This document shows positions 23,521 through 34,325 of a stretch of DNA of 34,471 nucleotides, piece by piece. Location of the stretch: positions 1 to 34,471 of the forward strand of contig JAGAMB010000023.1 of the NCBI GenBank assembly GCA_017624895.1, read 5' to 3'. Below the pieces are notes generated by a model. The model was given only the letters and a program-made list of their open reading frames with translations. It was not told the origin of the DNA and did no database searches. This DNA comes from Ruminococcus sp. (GTDB lineage: Bacteria; Bacillota; Clostridia; Oscillospirales; Ruminococcaceae). The position numbers and the translations under genes are program-made. Within the stretch, counting starts at the first letter, position 1, and each line of letters starts with the position of its first letter.

Positions 23521-25773
23521 ATGAAAAAATTATTATCTTTACTGACTGCATTGACCTTTATCTGCTCGATGACTGCCTGTTCAGACGGAAAAGGCGGAAA
23601 TGAAAGCTTACAGGCGACAGAGGAAATTACTGTTTCTCAGACTATGTACAAGGAGGAGCATATGGACTTCCCCGAAGATAAGCGCTTTGTTGATGGTATG
23701 ACCTACATTGACGGGCAGGGGGTGCGGATGATTTACACCAACAGCGAAAACTGTTACAAATATGCGGACTATGATGAAAATATGGCGGTGAAATCAACAG
23801 CGGAGCTTTTTGCTGTTGATAATAATACCCGCGTATGCTTTGAATGTGCTGATGATGGTACTATGATCGCTCTTTTAACCTATATTGACTCGGAATATGA
23901 AGTCGGAACTCCCGAATATTTCGACAATGCGGAATTTTCCTTTGAGCTGAGAAAATATGCTCCTGACGGCAGCGGTGAGGAAATTATTCCTCTGCCTGAG
24001 CTGGGAAACTATTACGATCCCTCCGCAGATATCGTCCGCAGTTTAAAGCTTATTGATGGGAAAATTCTCCTTTCACTTTCGTCGGGACAGCTTATTATGG
24101 ATATGAACGGCAGTATTCTTGAAAGCCGGCAGGAAAGCAGTTTTATCTACTACTGCGAGGACAGCAGCGGTAAAATTATAGCCGCCGCTGATACGGGCTA
24201 TTGCTATATGGACAAACTCAGCCTTGACCTTCCCGAAAATATGACGGAATACGGCGAATATCTCCGCCTAAACTTAAATCTCGGAGTATCAAAGGGCTAC
24301 GGCGGCTTTAAAGCGTTTTTTATGTTCAACAGCGGAGTTTATGGTCTGACGGAGAATAATACCTTTGTGGAGGTTTTCAACTACAACAATTCCCTTGTAT
24401 CTATCAGCGACTACAGAAATCTTGTGTACGCAGGAGAGGGAAAATTCGCAGGTATCAGCAATGAAATGGAGCATACTTTCCTTTCTAAGCTGACCGTCCG
24501 CCCTGATGATTATGTGATGAATCGTGAAGATGTGGTTATAGGCTTAGTTGGCGATATTTACACCACGGATCAGGAACTTGTCAGCAATTATAACAAGAAA
24601 AGCGACAGCTACAAGGCGGAGCTGAAATCCTACGGCGAAATGGACGATTTCACGGCGGCGGTGCTTACTGATGAAGCCCCCGACTGTATCAGCTACATCG
24701 GCACATATAATATGCGCAGGCTGAAAAATTTAGGTGCGGTTATGGATATGTACGAGCTTTCCGAAAAATATGGCGGATTTAAGAAAGAGGATATTCTTGA
24801 TAATGTTACGGAGGCTCTTGAAATTGACGGGAAGCTTTATGGAATATCCCAGAAATTCCAGTTTGAACTTGCTATAGGGAGAAGCGATATTTTCCCGAAA
24901 GGTAAAATGACATGGCAGGAATTCAAGGATATTTACGACAGCACTTCCGAAGATGTGTACTTTTCAAATATTTCAGATATGAACACAAAAGAGGACGTTT
25001 TCAGATTTTTGTGTGCCAATAATCTCAATGCATTTATCGACTTTGAAAAGGGTGAATGTCATTTTGATACTCCCGAATTTGCGGAAATGCTGGAATTTAC
25101 ACAGACTGTCCGCCTTATGCCCGAATTTGACTGGCAGGCTTTCTACGACTCGCATACAGAAGATGAAATTGTACTGTTTCAGCAGGAGGACCGCAACCGT
25201 ATATCCAACGGTGAAGCAATGATCGCAACAGGTTACGCGCATGACCTGGGCAGCTTCATTGATCTGAAGCATTTCTATAATTTCGGTGACGGTGAATACA
25301 CTATTTTCAATGCTCCCTCGGATAATCCGCAGTCAAATATAACTTTTGATATGCTTTATAGTGTTGTTACTAACGGCAAATGTCCTGAGGGTGCGTGGGA
25401 TTACATCAATTTCATCACATCTGAGCATTTTCTTACAACATATTTGCAGACAGAAAGAAGCTTTGTAACATTCAAGGACGCTTTCAAGAATATTAATGAG
25501 CAGATACGCTATTATTCTGAGCATCCTTCATATGTTGATGAACAGGGGTTAACTCATTATAACTACGGCGCTCAGAAGCCCATTACAGACGCGGAATACA
25601 ATATGGTGCTTGAATATATTTCAAACTGCACCATTCCCCGTGATTACAACGAAACGCTGTACAATATTTTAACAGAGGAATACAATGCCTTTGCCGCAGG
25701 TGACAAAACAGCCGCAGAATGTGCCGATATAATTCAGAACAGAGTGTCGATATATCTGAGCGAAAACAGCTGA
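23521..25773 (+). CDS. orphan solute-binding lipoprotein with large N-terminal domain
   Basis: The 750-residue lipoprotein has a signal with Cys at residue 20. About residues 40-330 form a beta-rich, Tyr/Asp/Gly-rich domain with propeller-like spacing that I cannot name. About 340-750 resemble an extracellular solute-binding protein of family 1 (sugar ABC importers), with segments such as PDCISYIGTYNMRRLKNLG, GKLYGISQKF and GAWDYINFI. Normal family members have 400-450 residues, so the N-terminal part is an extension. No ABC permease or ATPase gene is nearby, so it may be a ligand sensor, or it may feed a transporter encoded elsewhere. Start ATG follows AAGGAGG. It lies between two GGDEF proteins with LacI-type domains. 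Confidence 0.78.
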   Translation: MKKLLSLLTALTFICSMTACSDGKGGNESLQATEEITVSQTMYKEEHMDFPEDKRFVDGMTYIDGQGVRMIYTNSENCYKYADYDENMAVKSTAELFAVDNNTRVCFECADDGTMIALLTYIDSEYEVGTPEYFDNAEFSFELRKYAPDGSGEEIIPLPELGNYYDPSADIVRSLKLIDGKILLSLSSGQLIMDMNGSILESRQESSFIYYCEDSSGKIIAAADTGYCYMDKLSLDLPENMTEYGEYLRLNLNLGVSKGYGGFKAFFMFNSGVYGLTENNTFVEVFNYNNSLVSISDYRNLVYAGEGKFAGISNEMEHTFLSKLTVRPDDYVMNREDVVIGLVGDIYTTDQELVSNYNKKSDSYKAELKSYGEMDDFTAAVLTDEAPDCISYIGTYNMRRLKNLGAVMDMYELSEKYGGFKKEDILDNVTEALEIDGKLYGISQKFQFELAIGRSDIFPKGKMTWQEFKDIYDSTSEDVYFSNISDMNTKEDVFRFLCANNLNAFIDFEKGECHFDTPEFAEMLEFTQTVRLMPEFDWQAFYDSHTEDEIVLFQQEDRNRISNGEAMIATGYAHDLGSFIDLKHFYNFGDGEYTIFNAPSDNPQSNITFDMLYSVVTNGKCPEGAWDYINFITSEHFLTTYLQTERSFVTFKDAFKNINEQIRYYSEHPSYVDEQGLTHYNYGAQKPITDAEYNMVLEYISNCTIPRDYNETLYNILTEEYNAFAAGDKTAAECADIIQNRVSIYLSENS

Positions 25774-27485: not shown

Positions 27486-29411
27486 TTGGAGCAGCTTCCG
27501 AAGCTTATAGGTGTATGCCTTTCTACGCTTTATAATGAAGATCGTTATAATTTTGTGAAAAAACTGAATAAATATGCGATCGACAGCGGATACAGACTGA
27601 TGATATTCAACTCGATTTCAGATTTGTTTGAACGCTATAACAAGAATAATGAAGGAGCGTCATCTGTTTTCAGGCTTATACCGTATAAAAAGCTGTCAGC
27701 AATGATAATATTCCCGAATTTTATACATAATGAGGAAATAGTTGACGATGTTGTAAAAAAATGTCGTATAAACAAAATTCCCGTTATTACGATTGACAAG
27801 GAGCTGGAGGACTGCAGTTGTTTCTCCTTTAATTATTCCGACGCCTTTGAAACTCTTTGCCGTCACGTTATTGAGGAGCATGGTGCGAAAGATGTGTATC
27901 TCATAACAGGAACAGAGGGAAATAACTATGCTGAGGAAAGGCGCGCCGCTTATCGCAGGGCGCTGGAAGCAAACGGAATAACTTATGATGAGGATAAAGT
28001 AGGTTACGGAAATTTCTGGGAGGGACCTGTAAATGATCTCCTGATGAAGTGGTTCGATATTGAAAAGCGCAGTATCCCTGACGCTATAATATGCGCCAAC
28101 GACGTAATGGCTATAACTGCCAGCAGTTTTTTGCAAAACCGCGGATATACCGTACCTGATGAGTGTATAATAACAGGATTTGACGGAATTGAACGTTCGA
28201 AGATACATATTCCTCCGCTAACAACGTGTATTCAGGACTATAATAAAATGGGCAGATTGATTATTGAAAAAATTAATTCTGCTATCGGGGGAGATATGTC
28301 CGCAGTGAGGGCAAGGGTTGAATGTAATGTCATATACTCCAATTCCTGTGGCTGCAGCTGTACACAAACGCCTAATTTCAATATGTCCATACAGCAGCTT
28401 ATTAATCATATAGAGCTTTCAAATGAACGTCAGACAATGATGTGTTCAGTACAGTCGGCTATGTCTAAAATGACTGATATTAATGAGCTGCCGTCAATAA
28501 TGATAGATAAATTCAGTTTTAATACAGCGGTGTTTGCAGTCAATAATGATGTTTTTGATCCGCCGCGTTTCGGCTCGGACAGAAAGGGCGAAAACAGTTT
28601 CAGCAAAAAGGTAGATATCCTTTGCCAGCGGTATTACTGGTTTGATATTGCTCCGTGTACTATTGAGCTTGAGGAGTTTATTCCGCACCTTGCATTAATG
28701 ATGAAGCGCAAGGAGCCGATAGTTGTGTGTGCTGTCAATTCTATGGATATGGCGATGGGTTACTGCGTATTCCAGCCTGAAATTGACACAGACGAGTATC
28801 AGAAAATACACGCGTTTGTAAATGCTGTCGGAGCAGCTTTAGGAAATTTCCATGGCAGAATACAGATACGTTCAATAAATGAAAGGCTTGTTATGGCGAA
28901 TGATGAGCTTAGTCTGCTTTCACAGCGTGATTTTATGACAGGACTTTTCAACCGCCGAGGATTTTTTGACAGGCTTAATGATTTGCTGGCGGCGGAAAAT
29001 CTTGAAAATTCCACAATGGTAATAATATCGGCGGACCTTGATAAGCTGAAATATATCAACGATACCTTTGGTCATATTGAAGGCGATAACGCTATTAGCA
29101 CCGTAAGCCGCGCTCTTGTCAGCAGCTCTGTTCACGGTGAGATATGCGCAAGATTCGGCGGTGATGAATTTTGCGTTGCGGCTGTGGTAGCCGAGGAAAA
29201 AGCAGGTTATTATTTCAACGATTTCAAGGAAAGATTTTGCGATTATCTTTATGATTATAATCGTAAATCCGGCAAGCAGTATATAGTTAATGCAAGTATC
29301 GGCTGCTGTGTCGAAAAGATAAATGGCAAGGTTGACATTGAGGGAATGATAAGGATTGCCGATGAAAATATGTATGTTGACAAAATGAAACATAGAAAGA
29401 AAAGTGAGTAG
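27486..29411 (+). CDS. cytoplasmic LacI-type binding domain fused to GGDEF diguanylate cyclase (copy 2)
   Basis: Predicted diguanylate cyclase of 641 residues and paralogue of the product at 21288, with the same order of domains. The binding-protein-like domain (about 1-295; PDAIICANDVMAITAS, ITGFDGIERS, PPLTTC) ends in SCGCSC. A linker and GAF-like region (about 310-460) precede a GGDEF domain with DFMTGLFNRRGFF near 480 and intact RFGGDEF at 557-562. The RxxD inhibition site is missing here too (VHGE at that place). No signal peptide, membrane helix or DNA-binding domain is present. The start is TTG, supported by GAGGAGGTGA at the proper distance. The gene is monocistronic, with a hairpin overlapping its stop. 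Confidence 0.87.
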   Translation: MEQLPKLIGVCLSTLYNEDRYNFVKKLNKYAIDSGYRLMIFNSISDLFERYNKNNEGASSVFRLIPYKKLSAMIIFPNFIHNEEIVDDVVKKCRINKIPVITIDKELEDCSCFSFNYSDAFETLCRHVIEEHGAKDVYLITGTEGNNYAEERRAAYRRALEANGITYDEDKVGYGNFWEGPVNDLLMKWFDIEKRSIPDAIICANDVMAITASSFLQNRGYTVPDECIITGFDGIERSKIHIPPLTTCIQDYNKMGRLIIEKINSAIGGDMSAVRARVECNVIYSNSCGCSCTQTPNFNMSIQQLINHIELSNERQTMMCSVQSAMSKMTDINELPSIMIDKFSFNTAVFAVNNDVFDPPRFGSDRKGENSFSKKVDILCQRYYWFDIAPCTIELEEFIPHLALMMKRKEPIVVCAVNSMDMAMGYCVFQPEIDTDEYQKIHAFVNAVGAALGNFHGRIQIRSINERLVMANDELSLLSQRDFMTGLFNRRGFFDRLNDLLAAENLENSTMVIISADLDKLKYINDTFGHIEGDNAISTVSRALVSSSVHGEICARFGGDEFCVAAVVAEEKAGYYFNDFKERFCDYLYDYNRKSGKQYIVNASIGCCVEKINGKVDIEGMIRIADENMYVDKMKHRKKSE

Positions 29412-29575: not shown

Positions 29576-30343
29576 ATGGAAAAAAATATAAAAAAGATAG
29601 AAAACGAAAGCTTTTCTGATGTTATCTGCGGACGAAATCCCGTTATAGAAGCACTTAAATCAGGAACAGCTCTCGATATGATATATATGGACGGAAACGG
29701 CGGAAGCCTCAGCGTTATAAGACGGCTTGCAAAGGAAAAGGGTATTCCTGTCAAGGACGTTAAGGAGGATAAGCTGAAAAAACTTTCAGGAGGCGCTTCT
29801 CATCAGGGAGTTGCTGCCGTTGGTGCCTGCGGTGAATATGTCACAGTTGAAGATATCCTCGCTGTTTCACAGGAAAAGGGAACTCCTCCTTTTATTATCA
29901 TATGCGACGAAATTGAAGATCCCCATAATCTGGGCGCTATTATTCGAACAGCAGAAACGTCAGGAGCAGACGGCGTTATTATCCCAAAGCGCAGAAGTGC
30001 AGGACTTAACGCTACTGTGTTCAAGACATCGGCAGGTGCGGCAAGTTATGTTCCTGTGGCAAGAGTATCAAATCTTGCGGCAGCAATAGACAAGCTCAAA
30101 GAAAACGGCGTATGGATATACGGCACAGATGCAGACGGCACAGACTACAGCGAAACAGATCTGACAGGCAGCTGCGGACTTGTTGTAGGCTCTGAGGGCT
30201 TCGGTATAAGCAGGCTTATCAGGGAGAAATGCGACTTTATGATGCGTTTGCCTATGATGGGAAAAATCAATTCCCTTAACGCTTCAGTTGCGGCAGGCAT
30301 ATTTATGTATGAAATTCTCCGTCAGCGGAGAGCGAAAAAGTAA
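29576..30343 (+). CDS. rlmB: 23S rRNA (guanosine-2'-O-)-methyltransferase RlmB (TrmH/SpoU family)
   Basis: Methylates the 2'-oxygen of a conserved guanosine of 23S rRNA (G2251 in E. coli), using S-adenosylmethionine. The 255 residues comprise an N-terminal substrate-binding domain (VICGRNPVIEALKSG, about 15-29) and a SPOUT knot with the three motifs: NLGAIIRTAETSGA at about 117-130, LVVGSEGFGIS at about 201-211, and LPMMGKINSLNASVAAGI at about 224-241. The length is typical. ATG follows AAGGAGA. Related tRNA or 23S methylases of the same family cannot be fully excluded. The next gene begins 16 bp after the stop, so it is probably co-transcribed. Confidence 0.88.
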   Translation: MEKNIKKIENESFSDVICGRNPVIEALKSGTALDMIYMDGNGGSLSVIRRLAKEKGIPVKDVKEDKLKKLSGGASHQGVAAVGACGEYVTVEDILAVSQEKGTPPFIIICDEIEDPHNLGAIIRTAETSGADGVIIPKRRSAGLNATVFKTSAGAASYVPVARVSNLAAAIDKLKENGVWIYGTDADGTDYSETDLTGSCGLVVGSEGFGISRLIREKCDFMMRLPMMGKINSLNASVAAGIFMYEILRQRRAKK

Positions 30344-30359
30344 TTCGCAGGAGGTAAAT

Positions 30360-32867
30360 ATGGCAGACACAAAATTGTCCCTTGAGGACATTCTTGACGA
30401 ATATAAAGCAAATCCCGATGATACCTCCACATCTAAGGTAGGCAGGGACGATACAAGAAAGATACTTAATTCAACAATTCCCGATCCTGTCAGAGAAACA
30501 GCGGAAATACCAAAAGCTGTTTCCCACAGGAAAAATGAGCTTTTCGACAGCAATGAACCAAAGGCTAATCCCGCCAATGAGATACGTCCGGCGGAGCTTT
30601 CAACAAAAAAAGCGGCTGTTGCAGGGGACGAGGGAATCACAGAGGTGAAATCCACACATCCGATAGATAATGCTGATGAGGCTGAACTGACTGACGGCTC
30701 CTCAAAGATCCGCCCCATGTATGGCTCAACAAGAGCAAGAGAGGCGGAAAAAAGGAAAAAGAAGAAGTGGTTCGGACGGGAAAAGGCACAGCAGACATAT
30801 ACTAAGGAAAAAGCAGCAGGTGAATATATGTATATTCCGCCTGAGGTAAAAAAGAAAAAGCGTACAAGGGACGAGATAATCAACGAGGCGGAGGCTCCCG
30901 AAAACAAGAAGTATGTTACAGATATTGTACCGTCGCCGGCAGCGCTGGAGGCTACCCGTCCCATTGAACTTGCTCCCAGAGCAGAAACGACCAACATCGA
31001 CCTGAGCAGCGTAAGAGCTGCCTCAGAGGAGAGCATTGATGTGCGGATTGCCAGCAATACGGATGAATACACCCGTCAGGCAATGAAAACTAAGCGTACA
31101 AAACGTATAGTTGACTTTAACTATTATGGCGATGTTCAGGATGTGGGCAGAGATATTTATGAGCTTATGGGCATACTTAAAACAAGAGTTGCCGTTCTTG
31201 CAATGACAGCCTTTTTAAGCGTTTATATAACCATATGCAGCAGATTTAATTTCCCTATAGCTGAATTTCTGAGTATATACCACATACATTCATATCTCAT
31301 TGTACATCTTCTTCTCGGAGCGCTTTCGCTGTTTTATTCCGCGCCTGTGATAACAAAGGGCTTCAAAAATCTTGTGAAGCTGAAAGCGGACAGCGACTCG
31401 ATGACCGCAATAACAGCGGCAGCCTGTTTCCTATCCCTGCTTGCTTCATTTCTGCGGACGGATATGGCAAGGGCAGAGCTTATCCATATTTATATGCCCG
31501 TGGGTATACTTGCCCTGCTGACAAATGCAGTAGGAAAGTATCTCATACTGAAAAGAGCAAGACGTAATTTTAAATTTGCTTCACGGGATTTTGACCGCCA
31601 TGCTGTAGTTTATGTAAAAGATGAGGAACGTGCGGAACGTCTTACTCATGGAACTCTCGGTGATTTCCCCATACTTGCAGCAATGCGTCCTACTGACTTT
31701 CTCACGGACTTCCTGAGATATACATATTCTGCGGATATTACTGACAGCTTCTGCCGCAGAGCGACACCGTTATGCCTTATAGGTTCTCTTGTAATATCGG
31801 TGGTTCTTACATATATCCGTATGAGTACCCTGTTTTCTATAGAGGCATTTGTATTCGGACTTTCCATATTCTCAATGCTGATATGTGCCTGCTCATGTAT
31901 AGCGCTGCCCTTTGCGGCAAATATTCCTCTTGAAAAGGTTTCAAAGGAAACTATAAAAAATGACGGAATACTTCTTGGCTATCAGAGCGTGGACGACCTT
32001 TATGATGTAAATTCAATTCTTATCAAGGCGGAGGATATCTTCCCTGAGGGTACAGTACGTCTTGGCGGAATAAAGGTCTTTTCAAATACAAAGCTTGATG
32101 AGGCATTTCTTGACGCTGCAAGTCTTACATATTACGGCGGAAGTCTTATGCAGCAGCTTTTTGCCGATCTTATACATGGCAGGGAGGAACTGCTTTACCC
32201 GATTGAAAATTTCTCCTATGAGGATGGAACAGGACTTTGCGGCTGGATAAAGAACAGACGTATTCTCCTCGGAAGCCGTGAGCTTATGGAATCTCACAAT
32301 ATTGAGGGACTTCCCACCAAAACCCGTGAGGCTGAATATTCACAGGGGCATGAGCCTATATATCTTTCTATATCAGGAAATCTTGCGGCGATGTTCGTTG
32401 TTGATGTCATTGCAGGCAGAGGTGTCAGAAAATGGGCAGAAAGACTTGTCAGAAAAAAGGTGTGTATGGTAGTTAAGTCTGTTGACAGCTTCATTACAGC
32501 TGAAAAAATTGCTAAGGTGTACGGTATACCTGAGGGTATGGTAAAGGTTCTGCCGAAGAAGCTTCATGAGGATTTCGACGCTGAAACGAAAAAATCGGTT
32601 CGGTTAAGCGCTTCAATGGCGTGTGCCGGAAAATTCAGCTCAATGGCACAGCTTATACTTGGCATAAAGAGTATACACACTTCAGCAGTAATTGCTCTTA
32701 TTTTCCAGACAGCGTCAATATTGCTGGGATTTGGCTTATCAATGCTTCTTATACTTTCGAAGGCTTATGAATCAAATTACATCTATATGTCAGCAACAGC
32801 AATAATAATATACAATTTGATATGTACCTTGTTCACTTGTCTTGCAGCCGGCTCTAAAAAAAGATAA
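30360..32867 (+). CDS. P-type-ATPase-like membrane protein lacking catalytic motifs (pseudo-ATPase)
   Basis: The 835-residue protein has a disordered, charged N-terminus (1-250, with KKKK-rich patches) and then the layout of a heavy-metal-type P-type ATPase: helices at about 275-400, a transduction-domain-like loop at 405-450, helices at 465-520 with CSC (511-513) in place of the CPC motif, a cytoplasmic catalytic-like domain at 525-745, and helices at about 765-830. The nucleotide-domain part is recognisable (GTGLCGW-NRRILLGSRELM near 623-643). However, the phosphorylation motif DKTGT is replaced at 556-560 (KAEDI), and the TGD motif is replaced near 706-709 (KSVD). It therefore should not form the phospho-aspartate. 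Transport, scaffolding or sensing roles are open. Start: ATG after AGGAGG; the longer frame overlaps rlmB. The LCP gene follows by 30 bp. Confidence 0.75.
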   Translation: MADTKLSLEDILDEYKANPDDTSTSKVGRDDTRKILNSTIPDPVRETAEIPKAVSHRKNELFDSNEPKANPANEIRPAELSTKKAAVAGDEGITEVKSTHPIDNADEAELTDGSSKIRPMYGSTRAREAEKRKKKKWFGREKAQQTYTKEKAAGEYMYIPPEVKKKKRTRDEIINEAEAPENKKYVTDIVPSPAALEATRPIELAPRAETTNIDLSSVRAASEESIDVRIASNTDEYTRQAMKTKRTKRIVDFNYYGDVQDVGRDIYELMGILKTRVAVLAMTAFLSVYITICSRFNFPIAEFLSIYHIHSYLIVHLLLGALSLFYSAPVITKGFKNLVKLKADSDSMTAITAAACFLSLLASFLRTDMARAELIHIYMPVGILALLTNAVGKYLILKRARRNFKFASRDFDRHAVVYVKDEERAERLTHGTLGDFPILAAMRPTDFLTDFLRYTYSADITDSFCRRATPLCLIGSLVISVVLTYIRMSTLFSIEAFVFGLSIFSMLICACSCIALPFAANIPLEKVSKETIKNDGILLGYQSVDDLYDVNSILIKAEDIFPEGTVRLGGIKVFSNTKLDEAFLDAASLTYYGGSLMQQLFADLIHGREELLYPIENFSYEDGTGLCGWIKNRRILLGSRELMESHNIEGLPTKTREAEYSQGHEPIYLSISGNLAAMFVVDVIAGRGVRKWAERLVRKKVCMVVKSVDSFITAEKIAKVYGIPEGMVKVLPKKLHEDFDAETKKSVRLSASMACAGKFSSMAQLILGIKSIHTSAVIALIFQTASILLGFGLSMLLILSKAYESNYIYMSATAIIIYNLICTLFTCLAAGSKKR

Positions 32868-32897: not shown

Positions 32898-34325
32898 ATG
32901 TCCGACAGAAATAACACAGACAATCAGGATACAAACACAATATATATTCCTCGTGAGGCGCGCAGCGTTCAGTCGCCTCAGAAACCGCTGAGGAGAGTTC
33001 AGCAAAATCCTCCGCAGTATGGGGGACAGCAGTACAGCGGCCAGCCAATGCAAAACCCTCCGCAGTATGGGGAACAGCAGAACAGTGGTCAGCCAGTGCA
33101 AAACCCTCCGCAGTATGGAGGACAGCAGTACAGCGGTCAGCCAATGCAAAACCCTCCGCAGTATGGTGGGCATCAGTACAGCGGTCAGCCAATGCAAAAC
33201 CCTCCGCAGTATGGGGGACAGCAGTACAGCGGTCAGCCATATGATAACGGATATTATTACAATGAGCCGCCGAGGAATTATCCGCCAAACAGCGGAAAAA
33301 AGCCGTCAAAGAGTAATGGCGGCAGAAACGGAAATTCTCCGCAGAAAAAGAAAAAACGCAGGAAAAAAAGTCCGTTGGGTAAATTTTTCGGCAGATTTAT
33401 AAAAACGCTGCTGATAATATTTCTGATTATTTTTGGTATGTATTCCTGCACCTCACTTCTTCTGATAAATAAGATGGACTACGTTGGAACAGGCAGCAGA
33501 AGCCGCCGAAGCGATGCTCTTTCACGGAGCTATGTCACAAATGTCCTGCTTATCGGAACGGACGGCAGAACTGCCGATGAGGCTGCAAGGTCTGATACAA
33601 TGATAATCGCCTCCATAAACAGCAAAACAAACGAAGTGAGCCTTATTTCACTTATGCGTGACTGCTATGTGGAAATACCTGATTATGGCTGTAATAAGCT
33701 GAATGCGGCGTATACTTTTGGCGGTGCAGAGCTGCTTATGGATACCATTGAGCATAATTTTGGTATAGCGATCGAAGATTATGTGTCGGTGAATTTTGTT
33801 TCCTTTGCAAATATTGTTGACAGCGTTGGCGGAATTGATATTGAAATATCCGATGCAGAGGCGCGGGAGATCAACACTATTATGCAGGCTGAGGTCAACA
33901 GCATTATGGGCGATGATGTCCTTGACGATCTTCTTGACAGCGGCGGTGAGCTTCATCTCAACGGTAAGCAGGCACTATCCTACGCCCGTATCAGATATAT
34001 CGGAAATGCTGATTTTGAGCGTACAGAGCGTCAGCGCAGGGTGATCGAGCTTGTGATGAACAAGGTGAAAACGCTTAATCCCACAATGCTTACAAGCGTT
34101 GCAACAAGTGTGCTGCCCGGTGTTGAAACAAATATGACCACAGGGGAGCTGTATATGCTTTCACTCAAAGCTCCGTTTATCGTCGGCTATGAGCGTCAGC
34201 AGCTGCAAATTCCTGCTGAGGGGACGTATTACGGCGAATACAGGGATTGCGGTGATTCTCTTATTGTGGATTTCAATGCGAATTATGACTTGATTTATGA
34301 AACAGCATATAATACCAATCCCTGA
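32898..34325 (+). CDS. LytR-CpsA-Psr (LCP) family cell-wall glycopolymer ligase
   Basis: The LCP family transfers teichoic-acid-like or capsular polymers from undecaprenyl-phosphate carriers to peptidoglycan. The 475 residues comprise an intracellular N-terminus with five near-identical 16-residue units (QNPPQYGGQQYSGQPM), a Lys/Arg-rich patch at 150-158, one membrane helix at about 168-190, and an extracytoplasmic LCP domain at about 213-395. LCP signatures are LLIGTDGR (217-224) with RSDTM (231-235), SLMRD (251-255), NAAYTFGG, and YARIRY with DFERTERQRRVI. The start follows AAAGGAG. The final residues and the stop codon lie inside a repeat element that begins at about 34312. It is third in the rlmB operon. 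Confidence 0.92.
   Translation: MSDRNNTDNQDTNTIYIPREARSVQSPQKPLRRVQQNPPQYGGQQYSGQPMQNPPQYGEQQNSGQPVQNPPQYGGQQYSGQPMQNPPQYGGHQYSGQPMQNPPQYGGQQYSGQPYDNGYYYNEPPRNYPPNSGKKPSKSNGGRNGNSPQKKKKRRKKSPLGKFFGRFIKTLLIIFLIIFGMYSCTSLLLINKMDYVGTGSRSRRSDALSRSYVTNVLLIGTDGRTADEAARSDTMIIASINSKTNEVSLISLMRDCYVEIPDYGCNKLNAAYTFGGAELLMDTIEHNFGIAIEDYVSVNFVSFANIVDSVGGIDIEISDAEAREINTIMQAEVNSIMGDDVLDDLLDSGGELHLNGKQALSYARIRYIGNADFERTERQRRVIELVMNKVKTLNPTMLTSVATSVLPGVETNMTTGELYMLSLKAPFIVGYERQQLQIPAEGTYYGEYRDCGDSLIVDFNANYDLIYETAYNTNP
33003..33242 (+). repeat. five tandem 48-bp repeats inside the LCP gene
   Basis: Units start at 33003, 33051, 33099, 33147 and 33195. Each encodes a Pro/Gln/Tyr-rich 16-residue unit. Unit 2 has the most changes (E, N and V replacing G, Y and M). 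Copy number is likely to vary between strains through slippage or recombination. Confidence 0.95.

Follow-up and report, generated by a model that had tools for sequence, protein, structure and literature searches.

A conserved, apparently catalytically dead relative of P1B-type ATPases with a candidate N-terminal docking motif

The window analysed here is a stretch of 34,471 nucleotides of a Ruminococcus genome. Towards its end lies an uninterrupted open reading frame for a protein resembling P1B-type ATPases, referred to below as the pseudo-pump, placed between rlmB and a gene of the LCP family (Table 1). The ATG at 30360 is located 16 nt past the rlmB stop codon. A TTG codon 72 nt further upstream, within rlmB, is a less likely start. 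Residues 1-232 were found by counting to contain 41 Lys and Arg, 44 Asp and Glu and 21% hydrophobic residues, a composition consistent with a disordered tail. The preliminary description had placed KAEDI at residues 556-560 and had also read KSVD and CSC, which lie at 706-709 and 511-513; both its coordinates and its motif readings were right. Three further observations were made on the window. The LCP protein contains tandem repeats like QYSGQPMQNPPQYGG in its N-terminal part. At 27486-29411 (+) a 641-aa protein is encoded with a LacI-type periplasmic-binding-like sensor domain and a GGDEF domain, likely a ligand-sensing diguanylate cyclase. A 750-aa open reading frame at 23521-25773 (+) gave no Pfam match at E 1.

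Table 1. Features of the pseudo-pump gene and its direct neighbours, in positions of the window
Feature	Position	Strand	Remarks
rlmB, 23S rRNA 2'-O-methyltransferase	29576..30343	+	conserved upstream neighbour
Ribosome-binding site AGGAGGT	30349..30355	+	inside the 16-nt gap behind the rlmB stop; direct sequence reading
Pseudo-P1B-ATPase gene	30360..32867	+	ATG start, 835 aa
N-terminal extension, residues 1-232	30360..31055	+	charged, few hydrophobics; disordered by composition
N-terminal docking-like motif LSLEDILDEY, residues 6-15	30375..30404	+	
Shrunken A-domain loop, residues 404-459	31569..31736	+	TGE segment deleted
CSC, residues 511-513	31890..31898	+	in helix M4, where P1B pumps have the CPC metal site
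KAEDI, residues 556-560	32025..32039	+	replaces DKTGT; followed by F561-P562
Retained nucleotide-domain stretch, residues 621-640	32220..32279	+	with G625 and G638
KSVD, residues 706-709	32475..32486	+	replaces TGD
Two C-terminal helices, residues 776-831	32685..32852	+	M5-M6 equivalents of P1B pumps
LCP-family protein gene	32898..34325	+	downstream neighbour kept in Ruminococcus, rare elsewhere

No Pfam model matched the window protein at E 1. A phmmer search with the window protein alone matched Legionella CopA (3rfu) at E 7.7e-11, and the NCBIfam CopA model NF007952 matched it at 2.3e-13, although its score of 49 bits is far below the cut-off of 1316. 3rfu and 3j09 are the CopA structures of Legionella and Archaeoglobus, respectively. 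Relatives were gathered from the taxonomic family and order of the window. From 242 hits, 119 of 238 open reading frames were retained for alignment (less than 70% identity, a core of at least 480 aa and at least 110 bits); a member split by a stop codon (L042/L181) dropped out of this set. When the profile of the 119 members was compared with solved structures, P1B-1 CopA was the best match among P-type ATPases, with LpCopA (3rfu) at E 7.2e-39. The 55 structure matches at E 0.01 all bear names of P-type ATPases or of domains of these, LpCopA and other copper ATPases being followed by cadmium/zinc, sodium/potassium and calcium pumps. Thirty CopA-type pumps of the same order, chosen for possessing DKTGT, were used as controls, and hhalign aligned the family profile to them nearly end to end (probability 100, E 8.5e-55, 597 columns). 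The homology extends across the core helices and the P and N domains. Family-average hydropathy gave eight peaks above 1.5 in the order seen in CopA, in line with the P1B plan in which two additional helices precede the core on its N-terminal side, and a weak ninth peak (1.24) inside the cytosolic module. In Pfam searches of 25 members at E 0.01 two models were hit, in one member each: HAD at 0.0047 and a model for a sigma factor at 0.0045, neither of them P-type-specific. The preliminary description had stated that helix order, loops and nucleotide domain follow a P1B ATPase, and the phmmer, family-profile and hhalign results all bear out the kinship. The segment order and the layout of the A loop and the P-N loop are those of P1B-1 CopA (3rfu, 3j09), and the eight-helix membrane core and nucleotide-domain-like cytosolic module would have been retained from a P1B ancestor.

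The catalytic motifs of this ancestor are missing. DKTGT, GDGxND, CPC and SEHP were each found in none of the 119 relatives, all below 70% identity, whereas GDGxND, CPC and TGE were present in all 30 CopA controls, TGD in 29 and SEHP in 23. Neither DKTGT nor GDGxND was present in 25 further members from unsampled or thinly sampled families or in 17 members additionally opened for checking. In an earlier set of 185 hit open reading frames these two motifs occurred only in L002, a genuine CopA encoded in the same genome as the window. Both the GDGxND block and the A-domain segment with TGE are deleted in the hhalign alignment. The A-domain loop has a median length of 55 aa in the family compared to about 120 aa in CopA, the latter value being read off the alignment. 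The string TGE occurs somewhere in 13/119 relatives, at scattered places, and the string TGD in 17/119. Neither the phosphorylation motif DKTGT, the magnesium-site motif GDGxND nor a TGE dephosphorylation loop was found, and the CPx metal site expected in M4 of a P1B pump is CSC in the window protein. Unlike CopA, the pseudo-pump also carries a long charged N-terminal tail with a docking-like motif. The preliminary description had reported the motifs as replaced and had proposed a comparison of homologues; DKTGT was indeed absent from every member of the three sets. With the phosphorylation, dephosphorylation and metal-binding motifs lost, the protein should be unable to pump by the P-type cycle. 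Since these defining features fail, it was classed not as a P-type ATPase pump but as a pseudoenzyme that has branched off from the P1B fold. Judged from the sequence comparisons, the pseudo-pump is almost certainly a catalytically dead protein of P1B descent.

Two glycines of the nucleotide-domain module, G625 and G638, occupy the only columns that do not vary among the 119 aligned members, and we take them to correspond to ATP-contact positions of ATP7B. SEHP is an ATP contact of the N domain, and its histidine, important in ATP7B, is lost in the pseudo-pump family. Nucleotide sensing is doubtful because SEHP is missing from all 119 relatives. The aspartate of the TGD site (position 709) is conserved in 117/119, and the phosphorylation loop has acquired a new LFP-like signature, with F561 in 111/119 and P562 in 106/119. 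A still active pump with a non-canonical phosphorylation site, for example Asp 556, could draw on that residue, which is present in about half of the relatives (62/119), and on the aspartate at 709. This explanation is very improbable, as the window protein has lysine at 556, no relative has DKTGT, and the GDGxND block and TGE segment are deleted.

A passive or gated channel for ions or metals, in which the membrane path of the pump is kept without its motor, would fit the eight conserved hydrophobic segments. It would also fit the proline found somewhere in the M4-equivalent helix of 81/119 relatives (55/119 at the aligned position 513) and the glutamine at position 783 of the M5-equivalent helix in 76/119. 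The CPC site is nevertheless missing from all 119 relatives, and the M5-equivalent helix of the window protein has FQ where P1B pumps have YN. Furthermore, the strongest conservation is found mostly in the cytosolic module rather than in the helices, and a channel is considered improbable, though better placed than a pump of non-canonical chemistry.

The pseudo-pump gene is under purifying constraint. Values of dN/dS from 0.038 to 0.078 were obtained against seven close relatives (seven usable of nine comparisons), rough values given that dS was 0.98-2.9. The family is also widespread in the order. Judging by relatives that carry species names, Ruminococcus flavefaciens (with the gene in strains 007c and ATCC 19208) and its kin, we take this order to be Oscillospirales (GTDB). 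With an order-wide profile and a threshold of E 1e-43, matches were obtained in 275 of the 295 order genomes sampled, in 219 of the 225 near-complete ones and in 143 of 148 genera. One match was obtained per genome, except for two in G755, with at most four candidates scored in each genome. In a class-wide sample, a full-length match was present in 7/7 genomes of the order, and none of the 189 genomes outside it matched at E 1e-43, the best score being 138 bits. The outside-order matches listed span only helix M4 into the P domain, and DKTGT together with GDGxND was present in 22 of the 23 that were fetched. A search with a single sequence gave matches in 290/297 genomes at E 0.001; this search is lenient and can take in true pumps, and no family count was drawn from it. 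A genuine copper ATPase scoring above the family cut-off was also found in all 20 genomes tested.

The suggestion that the gene is a decaying pseudogene, or a normal copper pump with a local mutation, could appeal to the missing motifs. Among the relatives listed, a single in-frame TGA also interrupts L042/L181 (G318) and the members of G412 and G742, by sequencing error, recoding or decay. The suggestion is hardly credible and was rejected: dN/dS is low, the same losses recur in 119/119 relatives, the family reaches across the order, and the genome of the window has L002 as a separate genuine CopA. The preliminary description had read the locus as a repurposed protein and not as decay, a view borne out by the dN/dS values and by the motif losses in every relative opened.

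In one survey, which covered about 9.3 million sequences, DKTGT was found in 99.77% of the identified P-type ATPases, 22 of 9,634 being without an intact motif (PMC3896382). These exceptions share with the pseudo-pump the loss of an intact DKTGT, but they are described as point changes, one each, in proteins that are clearly P-type ATPases, whereas the pseudo-pump has several motifs lost or deleted across an order. Against the frequency of DKTGT given there, a motif-less offshoot conserved order-wide would be an unusual pseudoenzyme. In the open-licence literature no paper was found that pairs a P-type ATPase with the term pseudoenzyme, and searches on broader topics gave no such family among the matches listed, as judged from titles and the beginnings of abstracts. 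P4 ATPases retain the catalytic motifs, unlike the pseudo-pump family. A scaffold role independent of transport has been considered for P4 flippases in a 2023 review (PMC10654040), in the passages searched for P4 pumps only, and it resembles the role proposed below.

The gene neighbourhood was compared at two distances. RlmB is encoded directly upstream in 91 of 101 order-wide loci, on the same strand in all 91, and the median gap to the pseudo-pump gene is 15 nt, an approximate value since gaps were measured from the first start codon of each open reading frame. Four of the ten loci with no RlmB called upstream have an open reading frame of cluster 20 in its place, taken as antisense to rlmB and not counted. 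Among the 80 closest loci, 76 of them titled Ruminococcus, rlmB was upstream in all 75 with enough sequence. From this arrangement the pseudo-pump gene is probably co-transcribed with rlmB. An LCP gene was found downstream in 66 of the 67 closest loci whose sequence reached far enough, but in 3/101 of the order-wide loci. The preliminary description had proposed that the protein works with the LCP enzyme behind it; the rarity of the LCP gene order-wide makes this link a local one. As a conserved partner, LCP was rejected outside Ruminococcus and one near genus, to which both L185 and L191 belong. An EF-G-like gene, identified by eye, is located downstream in 14/101 order-wide loci.

The constant neighbour rlmB is a translation gene and not an envelope gene, and this was counted against a scaffold of the envelope. 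It speaks for a sensor of ligand or nucleotide tied to translation. Such a sensor would be made together with RlmB and would pass a metabolite or metal signal on to the ribosome or to the rRNA-modification status; the two invariant nucleotide-domain glycines fit it as well. Genes may, however, stay together in an operon although their functions are unconnected, SEHP is gone from all 119 relatives, and the N-terminal motif described below points towards envelope proteins. A translation-linked sensor is regarded as unlikely, though somewhat less so than a channel.

The tail before the core has a median length of 253 aa in stop-to-stop open reading frames and is shorter than 30 aa in 6/119 relatives. 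Many tails carry a short motif with the consensus [FYL]S[VIL][DE]DI[LI].E[YVIF]. A motif profile of 19 positions was built from 34 members. It detected the motif in 63 of the 112 members with a tail of at least 60 aa, including 29 of 78 outside the training set, and did not detect it in the remaining 49/112. Reversed tails gave no match. Among 1310 neighbouring open reading frames the motif was found in one, the leading part of a family member that a stop codon cuts in two.

A motif search at E 0.02, with about three chance matches expected, was performed in 148 genomes of the taxonomic family of the window (147 near-complete), using a model built solely from pseudo-pump family members. The motif was matched in 89 of the 148 genomes. 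Thirteen proteins outside the pseudo-pump family were found to carry it at the N-terminus, with E values from 7.9e-6 to 0.014, and all of them are envelope proteins: four sortases, three MltG, three ABC-2 permeases, two LCP proteins and one GldG-like protein. Pfam agrees for the ten that were scanned (Sortase 3, YceG 3, ABC2_membrane 2, LytR_cpsA_psr 1, ABC_transp_aux 1), and L368, L370 and L372 were identified by eye. Family rows among the matches were recognised by genome position or opened (L365, L376 and 17 of 18 more). Two fragments judged by eye to be the starts of family genes (G083, G073) and a 33-aa contig-end piece (G138:C45) were kept out of the thirteen. Four internal matches look like chance (L304 in G132, L408 in G109, L407 in G167 and L373 in G044, the last RsmB by eye). 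An earlier, strict DNA pattern applied to 14 genomes had suggested that the motif is confined to the pseudo-pump family, matches beyond the family being read as chance; this was overturned by the profile searches.

A wider model, built with these proteins as well, yielded two more, both assigned by eye: an MltG (L410) and a sortase (L406) whose motif lies near residue 45. It also gave three internal matches, to RsmB, to a CopA and to L413, and a match in G096 (L411) that had no reading and was left unassigned. Motif-bearing envelope proteins were found in sister genera (L361, L362, L363, L364, L366, L367, L369, L371, L374, L375 and L410). In the Ruminococcus genomes G000, G019, G135 and G260, that of the window included, the wider model found no second motif-bearing protein; in one of these four even the family's own copy was undetected by the motif, and G000 is just 70% complete. 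Nothing was found on this set of motif-sharing proteins in the open-licence literature. It is possible that the shared N-terminal motif is a common address tag of envelope proteins.

An envelope role for the pseudo-pump gains support from the shared motif, which in a sister genus is also carried by LCP proteins. The preferred reading, at about even confidence, is that of a conserved pseudo-pump which the envelope machinery has taken over as a non-catalytic scaffold or sensor in the membrane. Scaffold, sensor and channel are indistinguishable by sequence. For a scaffold or sensor of the envelope, the N-terminal motif would recruit the pseudo-pump to a cytosolic partner that the machinery for wall and glycopolymers also uses, and the nucleotide-domain module, being retained, may read out a ligand or bind a partner. 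A further, tentative step would make the protein an order-wide non-catalytic membrane hub, its docking peptide being part of an address system in the cytosol, so far undescribed, which brings together the enzymes that build the envelope. Within that system of MltG, LCP, sortase, ABC exporter and GldG-like proteins, the pseudo-pump might, with the same reserve, be either the hub or the most widely conserved client. The shared motif provides a testable handle, and an address tag would connect hydrolysis of the wall in gut bacteria with the attachment of glycopolymers, anchoring by sortase and the export of polysaccharides.

Two minor observations concern copies of the motif within the pseudo-pump family. 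In L195 and L199 each tail contains two motif copies, about 190 residues apart. In G004, two adjacent motif-bearing open reading frames of 831 and 916 aa (G004:C3:2076361 and 2079072) have equal motif scores, possibly a tandem duplication or an assembly copy.
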